DNA of 64,000 bases from Streptomyces ardesiacus (lineage in GTDB: Bacteria; Actinomycetota; Actinomycetes; Streptomycetales; Streptomycetaceae), in contig NZ_BEWC01000001.1 in the NCBI RefSeq assembly GCF_003112575.1, positions 310,001 through 374,000 on the forward strand, written 5' to 3'. Under the pieces are notes generated by a model, which ran no database searches, was not told the origin of the DNA, and worked only from the letters and a program-made list of their open reading frames with translations. The translations under genes and the position numbers were made by a program. Positions 46,203 through 56,402 of this stretch are shown in pieces (position 1 is the first letter of the stretch; every line of letters starts with the position of its first letter).

Positions 46203-47051
46203 TCAGCCCCGGACGGCCGCGGCCCGCAGGGCGACGCGGTCCTCTCCCGCGTACACGTTCATGGAGCTGCCGCGCAGGAAGCCCACCAGGGTCAGTCCCG
46301 TCTCTGCGGCGAGGTCCACCGCCAGCGAGGACGGCGCGGACACGGCGGCCAGCACCGGGATGCCCGCCATCACGGCCTTCTGCGCCAGCTCGAAGGAGGC
46401 CCGGCCGGACACCAGCAGGACGGAACGGGACAACGGCAGGCCGCCGTTCTGCAGGGCGCGCCCGACCAGCTTGTCGACCGCGTTGTGCCGGCCCACGTCC
46501 TCCCGTACGTCCACCAGCTCGCCGTCCTCGGTGAACAGCGCCGCCGCGTGCAGCCCGCCGGTCCGGTCGAAGACCCGCTGGGAGGCGCGCAGCCGGTCGG
46601 GCAGCTCGGCCAGCAGTTCCGGGGCGACGCGGAGCGGGGGAGTGTCGGCGATGGGCCAGCGGGCCGTCGTGCGCACCGCGTCCAGGCTCGCCTTGCCGCA
46701 CAGCCCGCAGGACGAGGTGGTGTAGACGTTCCGCTCCAGGGCGATGTCCGGGACGCGCACGCCGGGGGCCGTCCGCACGTCGACCACGTTGTAGGTGTTG
46801 GATCCGTCGACGGTGGCGCCCGCGCAGTACACGATGTTCTGCAGGTCGCCCTGTTCGGCGAGGACGCCCTCGCTGACCAGGAAACCGGCCGCGAGCGCGA
46901 AGTCGTCGCCCGGGGTGCGCATCGTGATCGCGAGGGGCTTGCCGTTCAGCCGGATCTCCAGCGGTTCCTCGGCGACGAGCGTGTCCGGCCGGGTGGACAC
47001 CGCACCGTCCCGTACGCGGATCACCTTGCGTCGTTCCGTGACTCGTCCCAT
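46203..47051 (-). CDS. fdhD: Formate dehydrogenase accessory sulfurtransferase
   Basis: A 282-residue FdhD protein, which passes sulfur from a cysteine desulfurase to the bis-MGD cofactor of formate dehydrogenase. The catalytic cysteine loop is [18 protein letters not shown] (C-x-x-C). Family blocks [54 protein letters not shown] and [20 protein letters not shown] are intact. The ATG at 47051 follows AAGGGG by seven bases. It is the last gene of the formate dehydrogenase operon, 32 bp after the FeS subunit gene, which supports assigning that enzyme as formate dehydrogenase rather than another molybdoenzyme. Confidence 0.97.
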
Positions 47052-47083
47052 GTTCGTGCCCCTTGCGCCGGTCGGTGTGCCGG

Positions 47084-47944
47084 TCAGTACCGGTTCTGTA
47101 CGTGCTGGTAGCCGAAGCGGCCCTTGATGCACAGGTTGCCGTGGGTCACCGGATTGTCGTGCGGAGAGGTGACCTTCACGATGTCATTGTCCTGCACGTG
47201 GAGCGTGAGGTTGCAGCCCACACCGCAGTAGGCGCACACGGTCGTCGTCCGTGTCTGCCGCTCCTCGTCCCAGGTGCCCGCCGCCCGCATGTCGTACTCC
47301 GACTTGAAGGACAGGGCGCCCGTGGGACACACCTCGATGCAGTTGCCGCAGTACACGCACGCCGAGTCGGGCAGCGGGCCGTCGTGCTCGACCGAGATCC
47401 GGGCGTCGAAGCCGCGGCCGGACACCGAGATGGCGAAGCTGTTCTGCCACTGCTCGCCGCAGGCGTCCACGCACTTGTAGCACAGAATGCATTTGCCGTA
47501 GTCGCGCACGTAGAGGTCGTTGTCGACGCGGGGCTCCTCCTCGACGCGGGCCGCGTCCGGGCCGAAGCGGTCGGGCTTCGCCTCGTACTCCTTGATCCAC
47601 CCGGCCACGGCGGGGGTGGTGGAGAGGTCGACGGAGGAGGCGAGGAGTTCGAGGACGACCTTGCGGCTGTGCCGGGCGCGCTCGGTGTCCGTGCGCACCA
47701 CCATGCCCGGCTCGGCCCGCCGCGAGCAGGCGGGCGCGAGGGTCCTGGCGCCCTCGACGTCCACGACGCAGACCCGGCAGGCGTTCTTCGGGGTGAGCGT
47801 GTCGCCCTCGCACAGCGTCGGGACGTCCTTGCCGGCGGCCCGGCAGGCGTCGAGGATCGTGGACCCCTCGGGGACCCTGGCCTCCTGCCCGTCCAGGGTG
47901 AACTCCACCAGGCGGCGCGGCACTCCGAGCGGTATCGCGGTCAT
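47084..47944 (-). CDS. Formate dehydrogenase FeS subunit (NuoG-N-like)
   Basis: A 286-residue electron-transfer subunit corresponding to the N-terminal third of NAD-dependent formate dehydrogenase alpha chains. The [2Fe-2S] ferredoxin domain ([30 protein letters not shown]) is followed by the His-Cys3 cluster segment ([15 protein letters not shown]) and a dicluster ferredoxin ([29 protein letters not shown]). The C-terminus is the Mo/W-enzyme 4Fe-4S ligand motif [14 protein letters not shown] with [13 protein letters not shown]. The protein ends exactly where the catalytic domain would begin. That domain is encoded separately at 49880-51808. Its ATG overlaps the stop of the NuoE-NuoF fusion gene by four bases. 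Confidence 0.95.
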
Positions 47945-49899
47945 TCGTAGGCCCCCAGACGGTCGATGGCGGATTCCACGGCGTTCCAGGCGGTCTGCCC
48001 CAGACCGCAGATCGAGGCGTCCCGCATCGCGCGGCCGACCTCGCGCAGGAGGGTGATGTCGTCGGCGGCGTCGGCGCCGGTGCGGCCGACGAGCCGGTGG
48101 AGGGCCTCCTCCTGGCGTACGGTCCCGACCCGGCACGGCACGCACTGGCCGCACGACTCGTCGCGGAAGAACTCCGCGATGCGCAGGAGCAGGCGGGGGA
48201 GCGGCACCGTGTCGTCGAAGGCCATGACGACACCGGAGCCGAGCGTCGTGCCCGCCTCGCGGGTGCCCTCGAAGGTGAGCGGAATGTCCAGCTCGTCGGG
48301 GCGGACGAAACCGCCCGCGGCGCCGCCGAGCAGGACCGCGCGGAGGTGGTCGCGGACCCCGGCGAGGGCGAGCAGCTCGCCGAGCGTGGCGCCGAAGGGG
48401 AGTTCGTAGACGCCGGGGCGGGCCACGCTGCCGGACACGCAGAACAGCTTCGGGCCGGTGGACGTCGGCGTGCCGATCGCGGCGTACGCCGGGGCGCCCC
48501 TGGTCAGGATGGGGAGGACGTTGACCAGGGTCTCCACGTTGTTCTCGACCGTGGGCCTGCCGAACAGGCCCTTCTCGACGGGGAACGGCGGTTTGGAGCG
48601 GGGCTCGCCGCGGTGGCCCTCGATGGAGTTGAACAGGGCCGTCTCCTCGCCGCAGACGTACGCGCCGGCGCCGCGCCGGATCTCGATGTCGAAGGCGTAG
48701 CCCTGGCCGAGGACGTCGTCGCCGAGGAGGCCGCGGGTGCGGGCCTGCGCGACGGCGTGGGTGAGGCGGGCGAGGGCGCGGGGGTACTCGCCGCGGAGGT
48801 AGAGGTAGCCCCGGTGGGCGCCGGTCGCGTAGCCCGCGATCGTCATCGCCTCGATCAGGGCGTACGGGTCGCCCTCCATGAGGACGCGGTCCTTGAAGGT
48901 GCCGGGTTCGGATTCGTCGGCGTTGCAGACGAGGTAGTGCGGGTGGTCGGGCTGGGCGGCCGTCGCCTGCCACTTGCGGCCGGTGGGGAAGGCGGCGCCG
49001 CCGCGGCCGACCAGGCCGGCGTCGGTGACCTCGCGGATGACGGCGGCGGGGCCGAGGTCGAAGGCGCGGCGGAGGGCGGTGTAGCCGCCGTGGGCGCGGT
49101 AGTCGTCGAGGGAGGCGGGGTCGGTGGTGCCGATGCGTTCGAGGAGGACGAGGGCGGGGTCGCCGGCCTGGGGGACCGCCAGGGCGGGGGCGGGCTCGGT
49201 GGGGGCCGATTCGGGGGCGGTGGCGGTCTGGACTGCCGTGTCCGGGGTCGCGGGGGCGCATACGGCCGTCGCGTGGAGGGTGTTCCGCCCCCGCGGCCCC
49301 TTCCCGGTCCCGTCCCCGGGGGCTGCCGCCCCCGGACTCCCGCTGCCGGCCTGGACGGCCTCGTCCTCGGACGCCGGACGGGCTGGGAGGTCTTCCTGCG
49401 CCGGACCGGCCGGGGCGCCCGCCCGGACAACCAAGGCCGCCGGGGCCCGTTCGCACAGGCCCAGGCACGGCGACCGTTCGACCTTCACGCCGCTCTCCGG
49501 ACCCAGGCGTGACTCCACCGCCGCGCACAGGCGGCTCGCGCCCGCCGTCGTGCACGCCAGGTCCGTGCAGACGTGGAGGACGGTCGCCGGGCGGGGGCGG
49601 ACGGAGAACATGGCGTAGAAGGTGGCCACCCCGTACGCCTCGGCCGGAGGGACGGTCAGGCGGCGGCACACGTAGTCCAGGGCGCCCTCGCTGATCCAGC
49701 CGACGCGGTCGTTGAGCGCGTGCAGGGCCGGGAGGAGCTGGTCGCGGCGGTCCCGGGCCTCCCGGCCGCCCCGGGCCCACCGCAGGTCGGCGTCGGAGCG
49801 GTCGGCGCCCTCCCAGGAGGACTCGGGCGGGCCGAGCAGGGCGTCGACGGCCGCGCGTTCCTCGTCCGTGGGTTTGCCGTCACCGAAGCGCAGGTCCAC
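47941..49899 (-). CDS. NuoE-NuoF fusion, NADH-binding subunit of formate dehydrogenase
   Basis: A 652-residue diaphorase subunit, transferring electrons to NAD+. Residues about 40-165 are NuoE-like, with thioredoxin-fold [2Fe-2S] cysteines in HVCTDLACTTAG and SPCLGLCERAP. Residues about 165-245 are a Pro/Ala/Glu-rich linker. From about 250 comes NuoF: FMN loop GLVGRGGAAFPTGRKW, NAD region CNADESEPGTFKDR, AGAYVCGEETALFNSIEG, and the [4Fe-4S] motif ESCGQCVPCRVGT with the fourth Cys in SICGLG. Such fusions occur in soluble NAD-linked formate dehydrogenases. GTG start within the tail of the catalytic subunit gene (20-bp overlap). Confidence 0.95.
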   Translation of the reverse strand: MDLRFGDGKPTDEERAAVDALLGPPESSWEGADRSDADLRWARGGREARDRRDQLLPALHALNDRVGWISEGALDYVCRRLTVPPAEAYGVATFYAMFSVRPRPATVLHVCTDLACTTAGASRLCAAVESRLGPESGVKVERSPCLGLCERAPAALVVRAGAPAGPAQEDLPARPASEDEAVQAGSGSPGAAAPGDGTGKGPRGRNTLHATAVCAPATPDTAVQTATAPESAPTEPAPALAVPQAGDPALVLLERIGTTDPASLDDYRAHGGYTALRRAFDLGPAAVIREVTDAGLVGRGGAAFPTGRKWQATAAQPDHPHYLVCNADESEPGTFKDRVLMEGDPYALIEAMTIAGYATGAHRGYLYLRGEYPRALARLTHAVAQARTRGLLGDDVLGQGYAFDIEIRRGAGAYVCGEETALFNSIEGHRGEPRSKPPFPVEKGLFGRPTVENNVETLVNVLPILTRGAPAYAAIGTPTSTGPKLFCVSGSVARPGVYELPFGATLGELLALAGVRDHLRAVLLGGAAGGFVRPDELDIPLTFEGTREAGTTLGSGVVMAFDDTVPLPRLLLRIAEFFRDESCGQCVPCRVGTVRQEEALHRLVGRTGADAADDITLLREVGRAMRDASICGLGQTAWNAVESAIDRLGAYE

Positions 49900-51808
49900 C
49901 GGTGCTCACCTTCTCGATCCGGATCGCCGAGGCCTTGAACTCCGCCGTCCCGGCGATCGGACAGTTGGCCTCGATGGTCAGCTTGTTGGTGTCCACCTCG
50001 TCCGGGAAGTGGAAGCTCATGAACGCCAGGCCGGGGCGCAGGGCCGTGTCGACCCAGACGGGGGCGAGCAACGAGCCGCGCCGCGAGACGACCCGGACCT
50101 CCTCGCCGACCCGCACGCCGTAGCGTTCGGCGTCCTCCGGGCAGAGTTCCACGGACTCGCCGCGACGCAGGGGGGAGGAGTAACCGCCGCTCTGCACGCC
50201 CGTGTTGTAGGAGTCGAGACGGCGCCCCGTGGTCAGGCGGATGGGGTAGCGCTCGTCGGTGAGGTCCACGGGCGGGTCGTGCCGGACGATGCCGAAGGGG
50301 GCCCGGCGGCCGCGGTGGGCCGGGTCCGGGGACCACAGCCTGCCGTGCAGGTACGGCGGTTCCAGCCCGTCCGTGCTCGGGCACGGCCACTGGATGCCCT
50401 GGTGCTCCTCCAGACGGGCGTACGTCATGCCGTGGTGGTCGGGGGAGAGGGAGCGCAGTTCGTTCCAGACGGCCTCCGCGTCGGCGTACTTCCAGTCGTG
50501 GCCGAGGCGGGCCGCGAGGTCGCAGAGGATGTCGATGTCCTCCCGGGCCTCCCCCGGCGGGGTCACGGCCCGCCGCACGCGCTGGACGCGCCGTTCGCTG
50601 TTGGTCGTGGTGCCCTCGGTCTCCGCCCAGCCGGCGGTCGCCGGGAGGACCACGTCGGCCAGTTCGGCGGTCCTGGTGAGGAAGATGTCCTGGACCACCA
50701 GGAAGTCCAGGGCGCGCAGGCGGCGCACCGCCTGGTCGGCGTCCGCCTCCGACTGGGCCGGGTTCTCGCCGATGCAGTAGACGGCGCGGAGCGTGCCGTC
50801 GTCCATCGCCTCGAACATCTCCGTCAGGGTGAGGCCGTGGCGCGGCTCGACCACCGTGTCCCAGGCCGTCTCGAACTTCCGGCGCACCTCCGGGTCGAGG
50901 ACGTCCTGGAAGCCGGGGAGCCGGTTGGGGATGGCGCCCATGTCGCCGCCGCCCTGCACGTTGTTCTGGCCGCGCAGGGGCTGCAGTCCGGAGCCGTAGC
51001 GGCCGACGTGGCCGGTGAGCAGGGAGAGGTTGATCAGCGCACGCACGTTGTCCGTGCCGTTGTGGTGCTCGGTGATGCCGAGGGTCCAGCACAACTGGGC
51101 GCGCTCGGCGCGGGCGTAGGCGTGCGCCAGGTCGCGGACGGCGGCGGCCGGTACGCCCGTCACCTTCTCGGCGAGGGAGAGGGTCCAGGGTTCCACCAGG
51201 GCCCGGTAGTCGTCGTAGCCCGTCGTCGCACGGGCGATGAACGCCTCGTTGGCCAGCCCCGCGTGGATGATCTCGCGGCCCACCGCGTGCGCCAGCGGGA
51301 TGTCCGTGCCGACGTTCGGACCGAGCCAGCTCTCCGCCCACTCGGCGGTGGAGGTGCGGCGCGGGTCGACCACGTACATGCGGGCGCCGTTGCGCAGGCC
51401 CTTCAGTACGTGCTGGAAGAAGATCGGGTGCGCGAAGCGGGCGTTGGAGCCCCACATCACGATGACGTCGGTGTGCTCGATCTCCTCGTAGGAGGAGGTG
51501 CCGCCGCCCGACCCGAAGGCCGCCGACAGGCCCGCCACGCTCGGTGCGTGGCAGGTGCGGTTGCAGGAGTCCACGTTGTGGGTGCCCATGACCACCCGGG
51601 CGAACTTCTGCGCCACGTAGTTCATCTCGTTGGTCGCCCGGGCGCAGGAGAACATCCCGAACGCGCCGCGCGCCGCCGCCAGCCCCCGGGCCGTGCGGTC
51701 CAGGGCCTCCTCCCAGGTCGCCCGGCGGAAGGGTTCGTCGCGCGAGTCCCGGACCAGGGGGTGGGTGAGACGGGTGTAGGTCTTGGGGGTTCGGTCGCGT
51801 TTCCTCAT
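49880..51808 (-). CDS. Formate dehydrogenase catalytic subunit (Cys type), lacking its own FeS motif
   Basis: A 642-residue bis-MGD molybdenum/tungsten subunit that oxidises formate to CO2. The active-site block is NVDSCNRTCHAPSVAGL: the metal ligand is cysteine (TGC), followed by the essential His. Cofactor-binding stretches include VMWGSNARFAHPIFFQHVLK, YVVDPRRTSTAEWA, LRGQNNVQGGGDMGAIPNRL and GENPAQSEADADQ. The C-terminal molydopterin-dinucleotide barrel starts YPIRLTTGRRLDSYNTG. The usual N-terminal C-x2-C-x3-C cluster is absent, since the protein starts at the region after it; that motif is on the 286-residue partner. The ATG overlaps the upstream reductase-like gene by four bases. No Sec insertion is needed. 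Confidence 0.95.
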   Translation of the reverse strand: MRKRDRTPKTYTRLTHPLVRDSRDEPFRRATWEEALDRTARGLAAARGAFGMFSCARATNEMNYVAQKFARVVMGTHNVDSCNRTCHAPSVAGLSAAFGSGGGTSSYEEIEHTDVIVMWGSNARFAHPIFFQHVLKGLRNGARMYVVDPRRTSTAEWAESWLGPNVGTDIPLAHAVGREIIHAGLANEAFIARATTGYDDYRALVEPWTLSLAEKVTGVPAAAVRDLAHAYARAERAQLCWTLGITEHHNGTDNVRALINLSLLTGHVGRYGSGLQPLRGQNNVQGGGDMGAIPNRLPGFQDVLDPEVRRKFETAWDTVVEPRHGLTLTEMFEAMDDGTLRAVYCIGENPAQSEADADQAVRRLRALDFLVVQDIFLTRTAELADVVLPATAGWAETEGTTTNSERRVQRVRRAVTPPGEAREDIDILCDLAARLGHDWKYADAEAVWNELRSLSPDHHGMTYARLEEHQGIQWPCPSTDGLEPPYLHGRLWSPDPAHRGRRAPFGIVRHDPPVDLTDERYPIRLTTGRRLDSYNTGVQSGGYSSPLRRGESVELCPEDAERYGVRVGEEVRVVSRRGSLLAPVWVDTALRPGLAFMSFHFPDEVDTNKLTIEANCPIAGTAEFKASAIRIEKVSTGGPALR

Positions 51809-52776
51809 GCGGCGCTCCTCAGCGCGAGCAGGTCCGACAGGGCGTGCACGGTGCGCAGCGTGGGCACCGGGACGCCGGTGATCGCCGCCAGCTCGACGAC
51901 GGCCGCGAGCAGCACGTCGAGTTCGAGCGGCTTGCCGCGCTCCAGGTCCTGGAGCGTGGAGGTGCGGTGGTCGCCGACCTTCTCGGCGCCCGCGAGCCGG
52001 CGTTCGACGGAGACGCCGACCTCGCAGCCGAGAGCGGCGGCGACCGCCAGCGTCTCGGTCATCATCGTCTCGATGACCTCCCTGGTGCCGCCGTGCAGGC
52101 ACATCTGCCGCATGGTGGCGCGCGCCAGGGCGCTGATGGGGTTGAAGGAGATGTTGCCCAGCAGCTTCAGCCAGATGTCGCCGCGCAGGTCGGGCTCGAC
52201 CGGGCACTTCAGTCCGCCCGCCCGCATCGCCTCGCTGAACGCCAGACAGCGCGCCGAGACCTCCCGGCCGGGCTCGCCGATCGAGAACCGGGTGCCTTCC
52301 ACGTGCCGTACGACGCCCGGCTGTTCCAGTTCGGTGGCCGCGTACACCACGCAGCCGACGGCCCGTTCGGGCGCGAGCACCGCACTGACCGCGCCGGCCG
52401 GGTCCACGCTTTCGAGGCGACGCCCGTCGTAGGGGCCGCCGTGCCGGTGGAAGTACCACCAGGGGATGCCGTTCTGGGCGGCCACGACCGCCGTCGAGTC
52501 GTGCAGGAGCGGCTCGATCAGCGGCCCGCACGCCGCGTACGAGTGGGCCTTCAGGCCCAGGAACACGTAGTCCGCCGGGCCGACTTCGGCCGGGTCGTCG
52601 GTGGCGTGCGGGCGCGCGGTGAAGTCGCCGCGCGGGCTGCGCACCCGTACTCCGTACTGCCTCATGGCCGCCAGATGCGGTCCACGGGCGATGAGGTGCA
52701 CGTCGGCGCCCGCACGGTGGAGCGCGGCGCCGACGTAGGCGCCGATCGCCCCGGCGCCGAGGACTGCGACTTTCAT
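51805..52776 (-). CDS. Ketopantoate reductase-like (ApbA/PanE) oxidoreductase
   Basis: A 323-residue NADPH-dependent 2-oxoacid reductase of the ApbA/PanE family. The N-terminal Rossmann loop is VAVLGAGAIGAYVGAALHRA with VHLIARGPHL, and the mid-protein strand is DYVFLGLKAHSY. The catalytic helix IWLKLLGNISFNPISALARA holds the conserved Lys and Asn. The true PanE substrate is ketopantoate. As first gene of the formate dehydrogenase operon (ATGA overlap with the catalytic subunit), this paralogue more likely acts on another 2-oxoacid or supports cofactor metabolism; that is inference. It lies divergent from the OFA transporter, with the candidate GntR operator between. Confidence 0.92.
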   Translation of the reverse strand: MKVAVLGAGAIGAYVGAALHRAGADVHLIARGPHLAAMRQYGVRVRSPRGDFTARPHATDDPAEVGPADYVFLGLKAHSYAACGPLIEPLLHDSTAVVAAQNGIPWWYFHRHGGPYDGRRLESVDPAGAVSAVLAPERAVGCVVYAATELEQPGVVRHVEGTRFSIGEPGREVSARCLAFSEAMRAGGLKCPVEPDLRGDIWLKLLGNISFNPISALARATMRQMCLHGGTREVIETMMTETLAVAAALGCEVGVSVERRLAGAEKVGDHRTSTLQDLERGKPLELDVLLAAVVELAAITGVPVPTLRTVHALSDLLALRSAA

Positions 52777-52857
52777 GGCGGGGGAGCTCCGTCCGGTCGA
52801 GGGATACCGAGGAACTGGGGGAGGGGATCAACGAAGTGCCGATGATGTCGACGAAAT

Positions 52858-52871
52858 ATTGTCTACAGTAT
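52858..52871. promoter_or_regulatory. Candidate FadR/GntR operator between transporter and formate dehydrogenase operon
   Basis: ATTGTCTACAGTAT, an AT-rich island. It contains GTC-TAC, fitting the FadR-subfamily GntR consensus GTM-N0-1-KAC, and the 9-mer GTCTACAGT. The reverse complement ACTGTAGAC occurs again at 55630-55638 upstream of the local GntR gene. The site is central between the ApbA-like start (52776) and the transporter start. Confidence 0.6.
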
Positions 52872-52986
52872 GGAGGTTGGGGCGGCAAGACTTTGTGCAG
52901 CAGGAGTGGTGGCAGTAGTGGTGGTCTGTAGTTGTGTGCTCAACAGTCTTCTCAAGCGCTTTCCCGATGCCTACGGTTGGGGACCC

Positions 52987-54330
52987 ATGAGTCCCCCCGT
53001 CGCACCGCCGGGCTGGAGCCGCTGGCTCGTTCCCCCGGCCGCTCTCTCGGTCCACCTCTCCATCGGGCAGGCCTACGCCTGGTCCGTGTTCAAACCGCCC
53101 CTGGAATCCGCGCTCGGCCTCAGCGGGACGCAGAGCGCGCTGCCCTTCCAGCTCGGCATCGTCATGCTCGGTCTCTCGGCCGCGTTCGGCGGCACGCTCG
53201 TGGAACGGCACGGGCCGCGCTGGGCGATGACCGTCGCCCTGGTCTGCTTCTCGTCCGGCTTCCTGCTCTCCGCGCTCGGCGCGGCCGTGGGGCAGTACTG
53301 GCTGATCGTCCTGGGCTACGGCTTCGTCGGCGGGATCGGCCTCGGCATCGGCTACATCTCGCCGGTCTCGACGCTGATCAAGTGGTTCCCGGACCGGCCC
53401 GGCATGGCCACCGGCATCGCCATCATGGGCTTCGGCGGCGGCGCGCTCATCGCCTCGCCCTGGTCGGCGCAGATGCTCAAGTCCTTCGGCTCCGACAACT
53501 CCGGTATCGCTCTCGCCTTCCTCGTCCACGGACTGACGTACGCCGTCTTCATGCTGCTCGGCGTGCTGCTGGTGCGGGTGCCGCGGCCCAAGGAGCGGGC
53601 GGACGGGCGGCCCGCGCCGCTCGAAGGCGTCCAGGTCTCGGCGCGCTCGGCCCTGCGCACCCCGCAGTTCTGGCTGCTGTGGCTCGTGCTCTGCATGAAC
53701 GTCACGGCCGGCATCGGCATCCTGGAGAAGGCCGCGCCGATGATCCGCGACTTCTTCGCCGACACCTCCACGCCGGTGTCGGCCACCGCCGCGGCCGGCT
53801 TCGTGGCGCTGCTGTCGGCGGCCAACATGGCGGGCCGCCTGGGCTGGTCCTCCGCCTCCGACCTGATCGGACGCAAGAACATCTACCGCGTGTACCTGGG
53901 CGTGGGCGCCCTCATGTACGCCCTGATCGCGCTGTTCGGCGACTCCTCCAAGCCGCTGTTCGTCCTGTGCGCCCTGGTCGTCCTGTCCTTCTACGGCGGC
54001 GGCTTCTCCACCGCCCCCGCCTATCTCAAGGACCTCTTCGGCACCTATCAGGTCGGCGCGATCCACGGACGGCTGCTCACCGCCTGGTCGCTGGCCGGCG
54101 TCCTCGGGCCGCTCATCGTGAACTGGATCGCCGACCACCAGGAGGAGGCCGGCCGGCACGGCTCGGCGCTGTACGGGACGTCCTTCCTCATCATGATCGG
54201 ACTGCTGGTCGTCGGCTTCGTCGCCAACGAACTGATCCGGCCCGTGCACGCCCGGCACCACGAACCCGCAGCCACCCCCGCGCCGAAGGAGGGCAACGAT
54301 GTCGTCCGACCTCAGCCAGAGTCCGCCTGA
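52987..54330 (+). CDS. OFA-family MFS transporter (oxalate/formate antiporter-like)
   Basis: A 447-residue 12-helix MFS protein. The start region PPAALSVHLSIGQAYAWSVF and the following KPPLESALGLSGTQSALPFQ are typical of OxlT-like carriers. Motif A-like loops are GGTLVERHGPRWAM and MAGRLGWSSASDLIGRKNIY. IGLGIGYISPVSTLIKWFPD and FYGGGFSTAPAYLKDLFGTY are hallmark OFA blocks. It probably exchanges oxalate, formate or another small carboxylate. The ATG at 52987 was taken because similarity begins there; the open frame extends 39 codons further, through the operator. It is divergent from the formate dehydrogenase operon, which fits substrate supply. The 3' end overlaps a mini-protein gene. Confidence 0.93.
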   Translation: MSPPVAPPGWSRWLVPPAALSVHLSIGQAYAWSVFKPPLESALGLSGTQSALPFQLGIVMLGLSAAFGGTLVERHGPRWAMTVALVCFSSGFLLSALGAAVGQYWLIVLGYGFVGGIGLGIGYISPVSTLIKWFPDRPGMATGIAIMGFGGGALIASPWSAQMLKSFGSDNSGIALAFLVHGLTYAVFMLLGVLLVRVPRPKERADGRPAPLEGVQVSARSALRTPQFWLLWLVLCMNVTAGIGILEKAAPMIRDFFADTSTPVSATAAAGFVALLSAANMAGRLGWSSASDLIGRKNIYRVYLGVGALMYALIALFGDSSKPLFVLCALVVLSFYGGGFSTAPAYLKDLFGTYQVGAIHGRLLTAWSLAGVLGPLIVNWIADHQEEAGRHGSALYGTSFLIMIGLLVVGFVANELIRPVHARHHEPAATPAPKEGNDVVRPQPESA

Positions 54331-54451
54331 GGCGGCCGGCCCGCCCGACCGGCGGCCGCTGATCGCCTTCACCTGGCTCTGGGTGGGCGCGCCGCTCGCC
54401 TACGGGCTGTACGAACTCGTGCGGAAGGCGACCCAGCTCTTCACCGGGTGA
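54299..54451 (+). CDS. MFS transporter small subunit-like membrane mini-protein
   Basis: A 50-residue frame starting ATG with AAGGAGG six bases upstream, overlapping the last 32 bases of the OFA transporter gene in another frame. It encodes a polar, Pro-rich N-terminus (MSSDLSQSPPEAAG), then one hydrophobic helix (PLIAFTWLWVGAPLAYGLYE) and a short basic tail (LVRKATQLFTG). Small single-helix partners follow OFA-type MFS genes in many actinobacteria and proteobacteria, and I recall them annotated as MFS transporter small subunits. Length, coupling and topology fit. Function is probably transporter stability or regulation; this is inference. Confidence 0.8.
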   Translation: MSSDLSQSPPEAAGPPDRRPLIAFTWLWVGAPLAYGLYELVRKATQLFTG

Positions 54452-54612
54452 GGGCGCGGGGCAGGGGACCGGGACCGCCCGGGCGGCGGAGGATGCTGAC
54501 CGAAGCCGACAAGCAGGGCGCCCGTTTCCTGTCGTATCACCTGCCGTCGTACCCGTCGGTCACTCATCACACTGGTGGATCCCGTACCCCCGAGGCAGCG
54601 AGGACTCCACCC

Positions 54613-55563
54613 ATGCATCACGGCTCCCGCATCACCGCCGTCGGCCACTACCAGCCCGCCCAGGTTCTCACCAACGAGGACCTGGCGGGCATGGTCGACA
54701 CCAGCGACGAGTGGATCAGGAGCCGGGTGGGCATTCGTACGCGCCGGATCGCCGGACCCGACGAACCGGTCGACGAGCTGGCCGCCCACGCCGCCGCGAA
54801 GGCGCTGGCCTCGGCCGGGCTGACCCCCGCCGACGTGGACCTGATCGTGGTCGCCACCTCCACCGCGATCGACCGCTCGCCGAACACCGCCGCCCGCGTC
54901 GCGGCCCGCCTCGGCGTCCCCGGCCCCGCCGCCCTGGACCTCAACGTCGTGTGCGCGGGCTTCACCCACGCCCTGGCCACCGCCGACCACGCCGTGCGCG
55001 CCGAGTCCGCGAGCCGGGCGCTGGTCGTCGGCGCCGACAAGATGTCCGAGGTCGTCGACTGGACCGACCGCACCACCTGTGTGCTGGTCGGCGACGGGGC
55101 GGGGGCCGCCGTCGTCGAGGCCTGCGCGCCGGACGAGGAGGCGGGGATCGGGCCCGTGCTGTGGGGTTCGGTGCCCGAGATGGGCAACGCGGTCCGCATC
55201 GAGGGGACGCCGCCGCGGTTCGCGCAGGAGGGGCAGAGCGTGTACCGCTGGGCGACCACGCGGCTGCCCGCCATCGCGCGCAGGGCCTGCGAGCGGTCCG
55301 GGCTCGCGCCGGCCGACCTCGCCGCGGTCGTCCTGCACCAGGCCAACCTGCGCATCATCGAACCCCTCGCCGCGAGGATCGGCGCCGTCAACGCCGTGGT
55401 CGCCCGCGACGTCGTCGAGTCCGGCAACACCTCGGCGGCGAGCATCCCGCTCGCCCTGTCCAAGCTGGCGGAGCGGGGCGAGATCACCAGCGGCGACCCG
55501 GTGCTGCTCTTCGGCTTCGGCGGCAACCTCTCCTACGCGGGTCAGGTCGTCCGCTGCCCCTGA
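54613..55563 (+). CDS. 3-oxoacyl-ACP synthase III (FabH-like)
   Basis: A 316-residue KASIII that condenses an acyl-CoA with malonyl-ACP. The catalytic triad is complete: Cys in DLNVVCAGFTHALATADH, His in VVLHQANLRII and Asn in ESGNTSAASIPLALSKLAE. The N-terminal TSDEWIRSRVGIRTRRIAGP is standard FabH. No other fatty acid synthase gene (fabD, acpP, fabF) is nearby, so it is an accessory KASIII, perhaps for unusual starter units or a small secondary pathway. The ATG at 54613 has a modest GAGGACT site upstream. The GntR regulator gene follows 161 bp later on the same strand. Confidence 0.95.
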   Translation: MHHGSRITAVGHYQPAQVLTNEDLAGMVDTSDEWIRSRVGIRTRRIAGPDEPVDELAAHAAAKALASAGLTPADVDLIVVATSTAIDRSPNTAARVAARLGVPGPAALDLNVVCAGFTHALATADHAVRAESASRALVVGADKMSEVVDWTDRTTCVLVGDGAGAAVVEACAPDEEAGIGPVLWGSVPEMGNAVRIEGTPPRFAQEGQSVYRWATTRLPAIARRACERSGLAPADLAAVVLHQANLRIIEPLAARIGAVNAVVARDVVESGNTSAASIPLALSKLAERGEITSGDPVLLFGFGGNLSYAGQVVRCP

Positions 55564-55625
55564 ACGCCGCCCCGCCCCCCGGTGTGACGTGCCCTACACA
55601 CCCGGCCCCGCGTCGCCGGTGCGCC

Positions 55626-55638
55626 GTAGACTGTAGAC
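55626..55638. promoter_or_regulatory. Tandem GTAGAC half-sites upstream of the GntR gene
   Basis: GTAGACTGTAGAC contains two copies of GTAGAC seven bases apart, the second within ACTGTAGAC, the complement of the site at 52861-52869. They overlap a plausible promoter with -35 TAGACT (55627-55632), 17-bp spacer and -10 GATACT (55650-55655), so binding would block polymerase; autoregulation is inferred. Confidence 0.55.
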
Positions 55639-55655
55639 GAAAGACAATCGATACT

Positions 55656-55689
55656 GCGCTTACCGGTGTTGCGCTGACCGGTGTTGCGC
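55656..55689. repeat. 15-bp tandem direct repeat in the GntR leader
   Basis: GCGCTTACCGGTGTT (55656-55670) and GCGCTGACCGGTGTT (55671-55685) differ in one base and are followed by GCGCG. They lie immediately after the candidate -10 element and 36 bases before the GntR start. Either slippage or a second binding element. Confidence 0.8.
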
Positions 55690-55724
55690 GTGGCGATTGT
55701 GTGCCGGCCGTCGAGGGGGGACCG

Positions 55725-56402
55725 ATGTTGTCCGCAGGACTGCCGCAGGGCGCGGTGCCCAAGCTGGAACGGCCCGGCCCGTTGCGGGACCGGGTCTACG
55801 AGGCGCTGCTCGAACTCATCACCACGCGGGCCCTCCAGCCGGGCCAGCACCTCGTCGAGAGCGAACTCGCCGGTCACCTCGGGGTGTCGCGGCAGCCGGT
55901 GCGCGAGGCGCTGCAGCGGCTCAACACCGAGGGCTGGGTCGATCTGCGGCCCGCGCAGGGCGCCTTCGTGCACGAGCCGACCGAGGAGGAGGCCGACCAG
56001 CTCCTGACGGTGCGCACACTCCTGGAGGCCGAGGCGGCACGGCTCGCCGCGGCCAACGCCTCCCGTGCCGGCGTCGCCGCGCTGGAGGAGCTGTGCGCGG
56101 AGGGGGAGCGGGCCGTCGCCGCCGAGGACGTGGACGCCGCCGTCGCCTTCAACGCCCGCTTCCACCGCAAGGTCATGGAGCTGGCGGGCAACGCCGTCCT
56201 CGCCGAACTCGCGGCGCAGGTCGACCGCCGGGTCCGCTGGTACTACACGCCGGTCGCCCGGCAGCGCGGCCGGCAGTCCTGGATCGAGCACCGCAAGCTG
56301 ATCGCCGCGATCACGGAGCGGGACGAGCAGTCGGCGACCCGGCTGATGCGCGAACACACCGAACACACCCGGCGCTCGTACCACGCGCGCGAGAAAGCGT
56401 GA
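55725..56402 (+). CDS. GntR-family (FadR/FCD subfamily) transcriptional regulator
   Basis: A 225-residue regulator. The winged HTH is LRDRVYEALLELITTRALQP with VSRQPVREALQRLNTEGWVD. The all-helical FCD ligand domain starts EADQLLTVRTLLEAEAARLA and carries metal-ligand residues of the D...H...H type, visible in FNARFHRKVMELAGN and REHTEHTRRSYH. Such regulators sense small organic acids. Given the shared 9-mer, candidate targets are its own promoter and the oxalate/formate transporter-dehydrogenase region about 3 kb away. The ATG at 55725 follows GAGGGGGG. A perfect hairpin terminates the gene. Confidence 0.93.
   Translation: MLSAGLPQGAVPKLERPGPLRDRVYEALLELITTRALQPGQHLVESELAGHLGVSRQPVREALQRLNTEGWVDLRPAQGAFVHEPTEEEADQLLTVRTLLEAEAARLAAANASRAGVAALEELCAEGERAVAAEDVDAAVAFNARFHRKVMELAGNAVLAELAAQVDRRVRWYYTPVARQRGRQSWIEHRKLIAAITERDEQSATRLMREHTEHTRRSYHAREKA

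Follow-up and report, generated by a model that had tools for sequence, protein, structure and literature searches.

In the 64,000-nucleotide stretch of the Streptomyces ardesiacus genome analysed here (contig NZ_BEWC01000001.1, positions 310,001 to 374,000; hereafter the window), a GntR-family regulator gene (gntR) lies near a formate dehydrogenase (fdh) operon, which begins with an ApbA/PanE-like gene (ApbA) and is divergent from the gene for an OFA-type transporter (OFA). This regulator, of the FCD type (FadR subfamily), is probably a repressor of the fdh operon and of its own gene, as judged by sequence comparison. The predicted local circuit of two sites is conserved in relatives and is ordinary in kind. 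On comparative grounds, the site in the gap between ApbA and OFA is assigned to the divergent ApbA-fdh operon rather than to the transporter, which is predicted to be at most a secondary target.

In the proposed mechanism, the GntR protein would recognise two copies of a site whose basis is ACTGTAGACRAWA / TATTGTCTACAGT. Upstream of the fdh operon, the protein bound over the putative -10 element would block transcription of the presumably co-transcribed genes for ApbA, FdhA, NuoEF, ferredoxin and FdhD; upstream of gntR, it would lie over the likely promoter and limit its own synthesis; and a small carboxylate or a related metabolite in the FCD domain would release both sites.

The 9-mer GTCTACAGT is found at 52861-52869 (forward strand), between ApbA and the transporter gene, and inverted at 55630-55638 (reverse strand), upstream of gntR and beside a second GTAGAC (55626-55631); an earlier interpretation of the window's letters (hereafter the sequence-only reading) had placed both copies exactly. 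Its expectation that such an AT-rich 9-mer should be rare holds within the window (2 copies vs 0.13 expected; 3 of 100 shuffles reach 2) but not for the whole genome, where 7 copies compare with 6 for the reversed control pattern, so that the 9-mer alone is not enriched genome-wide. Among seven random sites, about 0.015 pairs within 2769 bp are expected. A genome scan, which the sequence-only reading had proposed, is thus uninformative with the bare 9-mer; the 16-mer ATTGTCTACAGTATGG (the fdh-side version of the site) has one genome match at 0 mismatches, and at 3 mismatches two, equal to the control (2). The idea of a widespread regulon was rejected, since this 16-mer scan finds nothing beyond control, and the regulon in this genome probably consists of just these two sites.

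One of the five other genome copies of the 9-mer (L007, 1480-1545) was examined; it is a GTCTACA palindrome that relatives conserve in part, and it precedes an open reading frame with a BlaI-like N-terminus. Part of L007 matches 6 of 20 other genomes, the best two of which (G003, G011) cover part or all of the palindromic element; we take it to be a different, BlaI-type operator.

Conservation was followed in 80 loci (the best 80 of 542 GntR relatives, chosen by GntR similarity) and in a second set of 40 hand-picked stretches (25 genomes with gntR and without ApbA, and 15 others); the locus and genome sets of this study overlap in part, and L021 and G022 are seemingly from the same genome. The full gene order searched for is present in 55 of the 80 loci, the rest being partial, some through contig or stretch ends. 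Upstream of gntR, 79 of the 80 loci carry the exact 9-mer (L043 has one change), and ahead of OFA it occurs at a distance of up to about 230 bp in 62 of 77; five of the 15 OFA-side misses (L020, L050, L060, L071, L073) have the site beside ApbA, further from OFA, and for the other ten neither the site nor an ApbA gene with intact start was seen beside OFA. In the 80-locus set, each of the 65 ApbA genes whose start is intact has the fdh-side core CTGTAGAC within 300 bp, with GTCGAC 14 bp away in 65/65 and CATA before and AATATT behind it in 64/65; in the 40 stretches, 13 of the 14 ApbA genes have the core within that distance. The core is likewise found within 320 bp of gntR (79/80 loci; 33/39 stretches). 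Inserts between the two genes ApbA and OFA leave the site next to ApbA (in L073 at 3.1 kb from OFA), and L043 keeps the fdh-side site without an adjacent OFA orthologue.

Upstream regions were aligned with the motif as anchor, which was possible for 78 of 79 regions on the ApbA side (row L083, with the ApbA start missing, was dropped before counting) and for 109 of 119 on the gntR side. The 78 ApbA regions, aligned on CTGTAGAC, show the CATA/AATATT flanks in 75 and GTCGAC 14 bp off in 75; the gntR side shows CCGTAGACTGTAGACGAAAGACAAT amid drifting surroundings. Such an alignment had been proposed by the sequence-only reading as a check, and on both sides the block columns are near-invariant while the outer flanks drift. 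The 9-mer pair is regarded as real because of this conservation in relatives, not because of genome-wide rarity.

The gene that the site follows can be read from 101 Streptomyces genomes, searched for gntR at E up to 1e-40 and for ApbA and OFA at E up to 1e-60; the second fragments of ApbA (G067), gntR (G027) and OFA (G036) and seven gntR-like matches of 57-59% identity were dropped before counting. These genomes contain gntR in 62, ApbA in 37 and OFA in 51 cases. The 19-mer AATATTGTCTACAGTATGG (up to 2 mismatches) has 44 matches in 42 genomes and its reversed control 0; it lies upstream of 36 of 38 ApbA genes, at 59-165 bp. Where OFA adjoins ApbA the site is common to both in 24/24; where the two are apart, ApbA keeps the site in 12/14 and OFA in 6/29 (Fisher p 1.3e-4, uncorrected for relatedness). 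Five of these six OFA genes face an fdh gene or remnant, and for the sixth (G022) no fdh gene or remnant faces the site in the stretch examined; seven of the eight 19-mer matches not upstream of an ApbA match face fdhD or another fdh remnant. The gntR-side 25-mer (up to 3 mismatches) has 41 matches in 39 of the 101 genomes, each of which precedes gntR. At a distance from the OFA locus, an extra gntR copy in G079 (G079:C1:1449767-1451643) and the only close gntR copy in G091 (G091:C1:1449363-1451239) are directly divergent from ApbA with the site between, and in both genomes the ApbA and the OFA places each keep a site.

The association extends beyond the genus. An 18-mer version (up to 2 mismatches) occurs in 19 of 150 genomes of the family (control 0), four of which, the window's own included, are also among the 101 (G000, G067, G087, G095), and all 19 matches face an fdh-operon gene or remnant. 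Six matches belong to another genus and are all upstream of ApbA (74-78% ApbA identity); none of these six loci shows OFA within 1.5 kb on either side. Two of them have gntR and ApbA immediately divergent from each other, the operator of gntR lying in this same gap; no OFA or KAS III gene was found in the 3 kb available. This compact gntR-ApbA arrangement is probably ancestral.

The putative -10 of the ApbA promoter falls inside the fdh-side operator, TTG in the -35 stretch is present in 78/78 aligned ApbA upstream regions, and the -35/-10 spacing is 17-18 bp in regions judged by eye, with TTGACC in several divergent members; the fdh-side site lies over a putative promoter, TTGNCN-17/18-TAGACA, that is directed towards ApbA. 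On the gntR side, the -35/-10 pair at 55627-55655 suggested by the sequence-only reading could not be upheld: TAGACT-17-GATACT is partly kept (ATACT columns) in near relatives of the 80-locus set and not in the wider set; TAGACT itself may be the -10 element. Since both sites lie over putative promoters, their positions suit repression.

The elements GTC-TAC, GTA-GAC and GTC-GAC in the operators all fit the FadR-subfamily operator consensus GTM-N0-1-KAC (PMC4494728), which the sequence-only reading had quoted correctly for GTC-TAC. The sequence TTGT-CT-ACAG here also resembles TKGT/ACMA, with a less usual 2-nucleotide gap, whereas the second box here is CTGT and not TKGT, and the conserved blocks exceed one palindrome (PMC4494728). 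Heptads 1 and 2 of the gntR operator are conserved, and heptad 3 varies in the wider set, in an alignment whose rows were picked on a pattern inside the first two heptads; the fdh operator is without a three-repeat array. It is conceivable, though unlikely, that the regulator assembles several dimers on an array of 7-bp period, and that different array forms set different strengths at the two promoters; this is suggested because the consensus hexamers of the gntR operator are 7 bp apart and joined by a third heptad, and because GTCGAC and GTCTAC of the fdh operator are 14 bp apart (conserved in 75/78). If true, the switch would be cooperative in the manner of NanR but would lack NanR's N-terminal extension. 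Escherichia coli NanR is a GntR-type repressor with a tandem direct-repeat operator, which the three heptads at gntR recall, but its repeats read GGTATA, and a 32-residue N-terminal extension is required for cooperativity (PMC8012715), whereas the GntR protein here has about 20 residues before the GntR domain and its fdh operator shows no triple repeat.

The regulator carries a GntR winged-helix domain (PF00392, 68.3 bits, cut-off 27) and a C-terminal FCD domain (PF07729, 93.9 bits, cut-off 24.3). Its helix-turn-helix residues are nearly invariant across 122 aligned GntR sequences (from two partly overlapping locus sets); His 147, 189 and 211 are present in 122/122 and Asn 143 in 121/122. These are the presumed metal positions of the FCD domain; in place of Asn 143 the family usually has Asp. 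Solved relatives in the GntR family exist and were aligned with this protein. By family, that is, from the GntR and FCD domains, the three invariant histidines and the solved relatives, a metal-held small acid is the likely inducer. All 24 models listed for named regulators (LldR, NanR, GlcC, PdhR, PhnR) scored below cut-off, the best being TIGR03338 (110 bits, cut-off 271.5). HypR of Streptomyces coelicolor, a 225-aa FadR-type regulator that represses a catabolic operon and itself with a site over its own -10 (PMC6608401), indicates that such autorepressors exist in Streptomyces. The likeness lies in the length, the type and the autorepressor model with a site over the -10; HypR differs in its operator, CTNTGC(A/C)ATGTCAC, in its L-hydroxyproline pathway, and in having several scattered targets vs two here (PMC6608401).

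In the sequence-only reading, one GntR protein acts through the intervening site on both import (OFA) and oxidation. For this speak the position of the site, 123 bp upstream of OFA, its presence wherever OFA adjoins ApbA, the copies kept at OFA after separation in G079 (0 mismatches) and G091 (2 mismatches), and two genomes (G055, G096) in which OFA is divergent from gntR, the gap holds the gntR-side site, and FDH alpha lies further on in the same strand. Yet separated OFA genes keep the site in the minority given above, and in 3/13 in a second comparison, where two of the three are again opposite an fdh gene or remnant; OFA shows conservation of its own at some start-proximal positions; and the six loci of the other genus lack a nearby OFA. 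Joint control of this kind is rather unlikely. What stands of the single circuit is the shared operator, the predicted autoregulation of gntR and the predicted control of the NAD-linked fdh genes; what falls is the site as one mainly serving OFA, since it follows ApbA/fdh when the two are apart and persists without adjacent OFA (L043, the six other-genus loci). Co-control of OFA by the same site may occur in some species, this one included, a possibility kept because six of 29 separated OFA genes retain the site. As for the binder and its action, members of the FadR subfamily can be activators or repressors, and GntR might be an activator at fdh. This has a low probability, for the fdh-side site overlaps the putative -10, which is a blocking position, and the Streptomyces FadR-type HypR covers its own -10 and represses itself (PMC6608401). 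Equally improbable is a different regulator that binds the sites and has gntR merely as one target: similar GTCTACA palindromes elsewhere in the genome (e.g. L007) imply that the GTCTAC core does not name the binder, but gntR is present in each of the 42 genomes that have the 19-mer, the 4 genomes with OFA and without gntR have no 19-mer site, gntR stands directly beside the site in G079, G091 and two loci of the other genus, and the sites fit the FadR consensus (PMC4494728). That the 9-mer pair reflects chance or merely inherited synteny is extremely improbable; although the 7 genome copies are close to the control's 6, chance was rejected on the near-invariant flanking block columns amid drifting outer flanks, and the site is kept after rearrangements and in another genus at 74-78% ApbA identity.

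Several observations weigh against GntR as a repressor of fdh and of itself, or limit the evidence for it. In the anchored alignments the core columns are invariant by construction, and only flanking columns and match rates count as evidence. Neither gap gave a promoter in a generic sigma-70 scan, and the two operators are closely alike over only about 9-13 bp. One ApbA match (L229) is without the site, as are the two exceptions among the 38 ApbA genes, which are paralogues of about 70% identity; and six OFA genes apart from ApbA retain it. In L251, L252 and L255 the gntR operator reads CTGTATTC and the fdh site is still GTCTACAG. In L217, L225 and L232 the gntR operator is lost or only a degenerate trace and ApbA is not detected at E <=1e-60, which was counted in favour of the repressor; the same three loci keep fdhD and gntR without either site, which was counted against it. 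Finally, 20 of the 62 gntR-bearing genomes are without the fdh-side site and 25 without ApbA at the threshold used, which means that gntR either persists after its supposed target is gone or has a different one.

The OFA upstream regions were aligned after removal of six OFA rows starting after residue 1. A TACGGT ends about 11 nucleotides before the OFA ATG (52987), with a partly conserved TTCYCAA further up, suggesting that OFA has a promoter of its own, perhaps a leaderless one. A different element, ATACCGTTCAYCGCATACGGTCGAC, precedes OFA in several relatives (e.g. L050, L060, L073) and is possibly the site of another regulator; within the stretch compared, neither the window nor L008, L009, L010 or L014 shows it. 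The oxalate/formate label that the sequence-only reading had given the transporter is not borne out: the antiporter models are far below cut-off (TIGR00890, 181 vs 375 bits; TIGR04259, 153 vs 335), and the best curated match, to an L-lactate transporter of the MFS, is just under its cut-off (Table 1).

Leftward from 52776 the genes are ApbA, FDH alpha catalytic part, NuoEF-like fusion, ferredoxin-like subunit and FdhD, and rightward from 52987 the OFA-type transporter, a small MFS subunit, a KAS III gene, gntR and a ROK regulator (Table 1). FDH alpha is seemingly split and reordered: the part matching TIGR01591 positions 1-50 is at the end of the ferredoxin-like reading frame, and that matching 52-672 is in a separate frame encoded upstream of it. 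The small subunit, a 50-aa gene straight after the transporter (54299-54451; NF047966 MFS transporter small subunit, 63 bits, cut-off 24), is absent from the sequence-only reading. The KAS III gene (54613-55563), between transporter and gntR, has a match in 79 of the 80 related loci; it was rejected as a target of the site, the 9-mer upstream of it being found in 0/79. An identity of the adjacent ROK gene with rok7B7 of S. coelicolor was considered; publications on SCO6004-SCO6007 seem to point to an uptake system there, so that the gene is left without an S. coelicolor locus name.

Table 1. Operators, putative promoter and genes of the gntR-fdh region (window coordinates).
Feature	Coordinates	Strand	Description
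fdh-side operator	52847..52873		GTCGAC (52847-52852), 8 bp, GTCTACAGTATGG; contains 9-mer 52861-52869
gntR operator CCGTAGACTGTAGACGAAAGACAAT	55624..55648	+	Heptads GTAGACT, GTAGACG, AAAGACA; contains inverted 9-mer 55630-55638
Putative ApbA-fdh promoter	52860..52888	-	Inferred -35 TTGCCG (52888-52883), 17 bp, -10 TAGACA (52865-52860)
ApbA/PanE-like 2-dehydropantoate 2-reductase family protein	51805..52776	-	First gene of fdh operon; Pfam ApbA, ApbA_C; NF005089 467 bits, cut-off 223
Formate dehydrogenase (FDH) alpha, catalytic part, 642 aa	49880..51808	-	TIGR01591 positions 52-672, 615 bits, cut-off 666
NuoE-NuoF-like fusion, diaphorase part	47941..49899	-	Pfam Complex1_51K, 2Fe-2S_thioredx
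Ferredoxin-like subunit and N-terminal FDH alpha segment	47084..47944	-	NuoG/HoxU models below cut-off; TIGR01591 positions 1-50
FdhD, formate dehydrogenase accessory sulfurtransferase	46203..47132	-	NF001943 405 bits, cut-off 269
OFA-type MFS transporter, 447 aa	52987..54330	+	NF049980 L-lactate MFS transporter 313 bits, cut-off 320
gntR, 225-aa regulator	55725..56402	+	GntR DNA-binding and FCD effector domains; Pfam GntR 4.4e-19, FCD 1.3e-26

A text search of papers for the letters of the 9-mer gave nothing seemingly related among the matches listed (title or start of abstract), and no published description of the circuit was found in a limited literature search, other literature not being searched; as far as this search shows, the circuit is new in its details. 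The comparisons provide what appears to be a well-supported operator and target for a local formate dehydrogenase regulator in Streptomyces and a second genus of the family, and many natural rearrangements show which gene the site serves.

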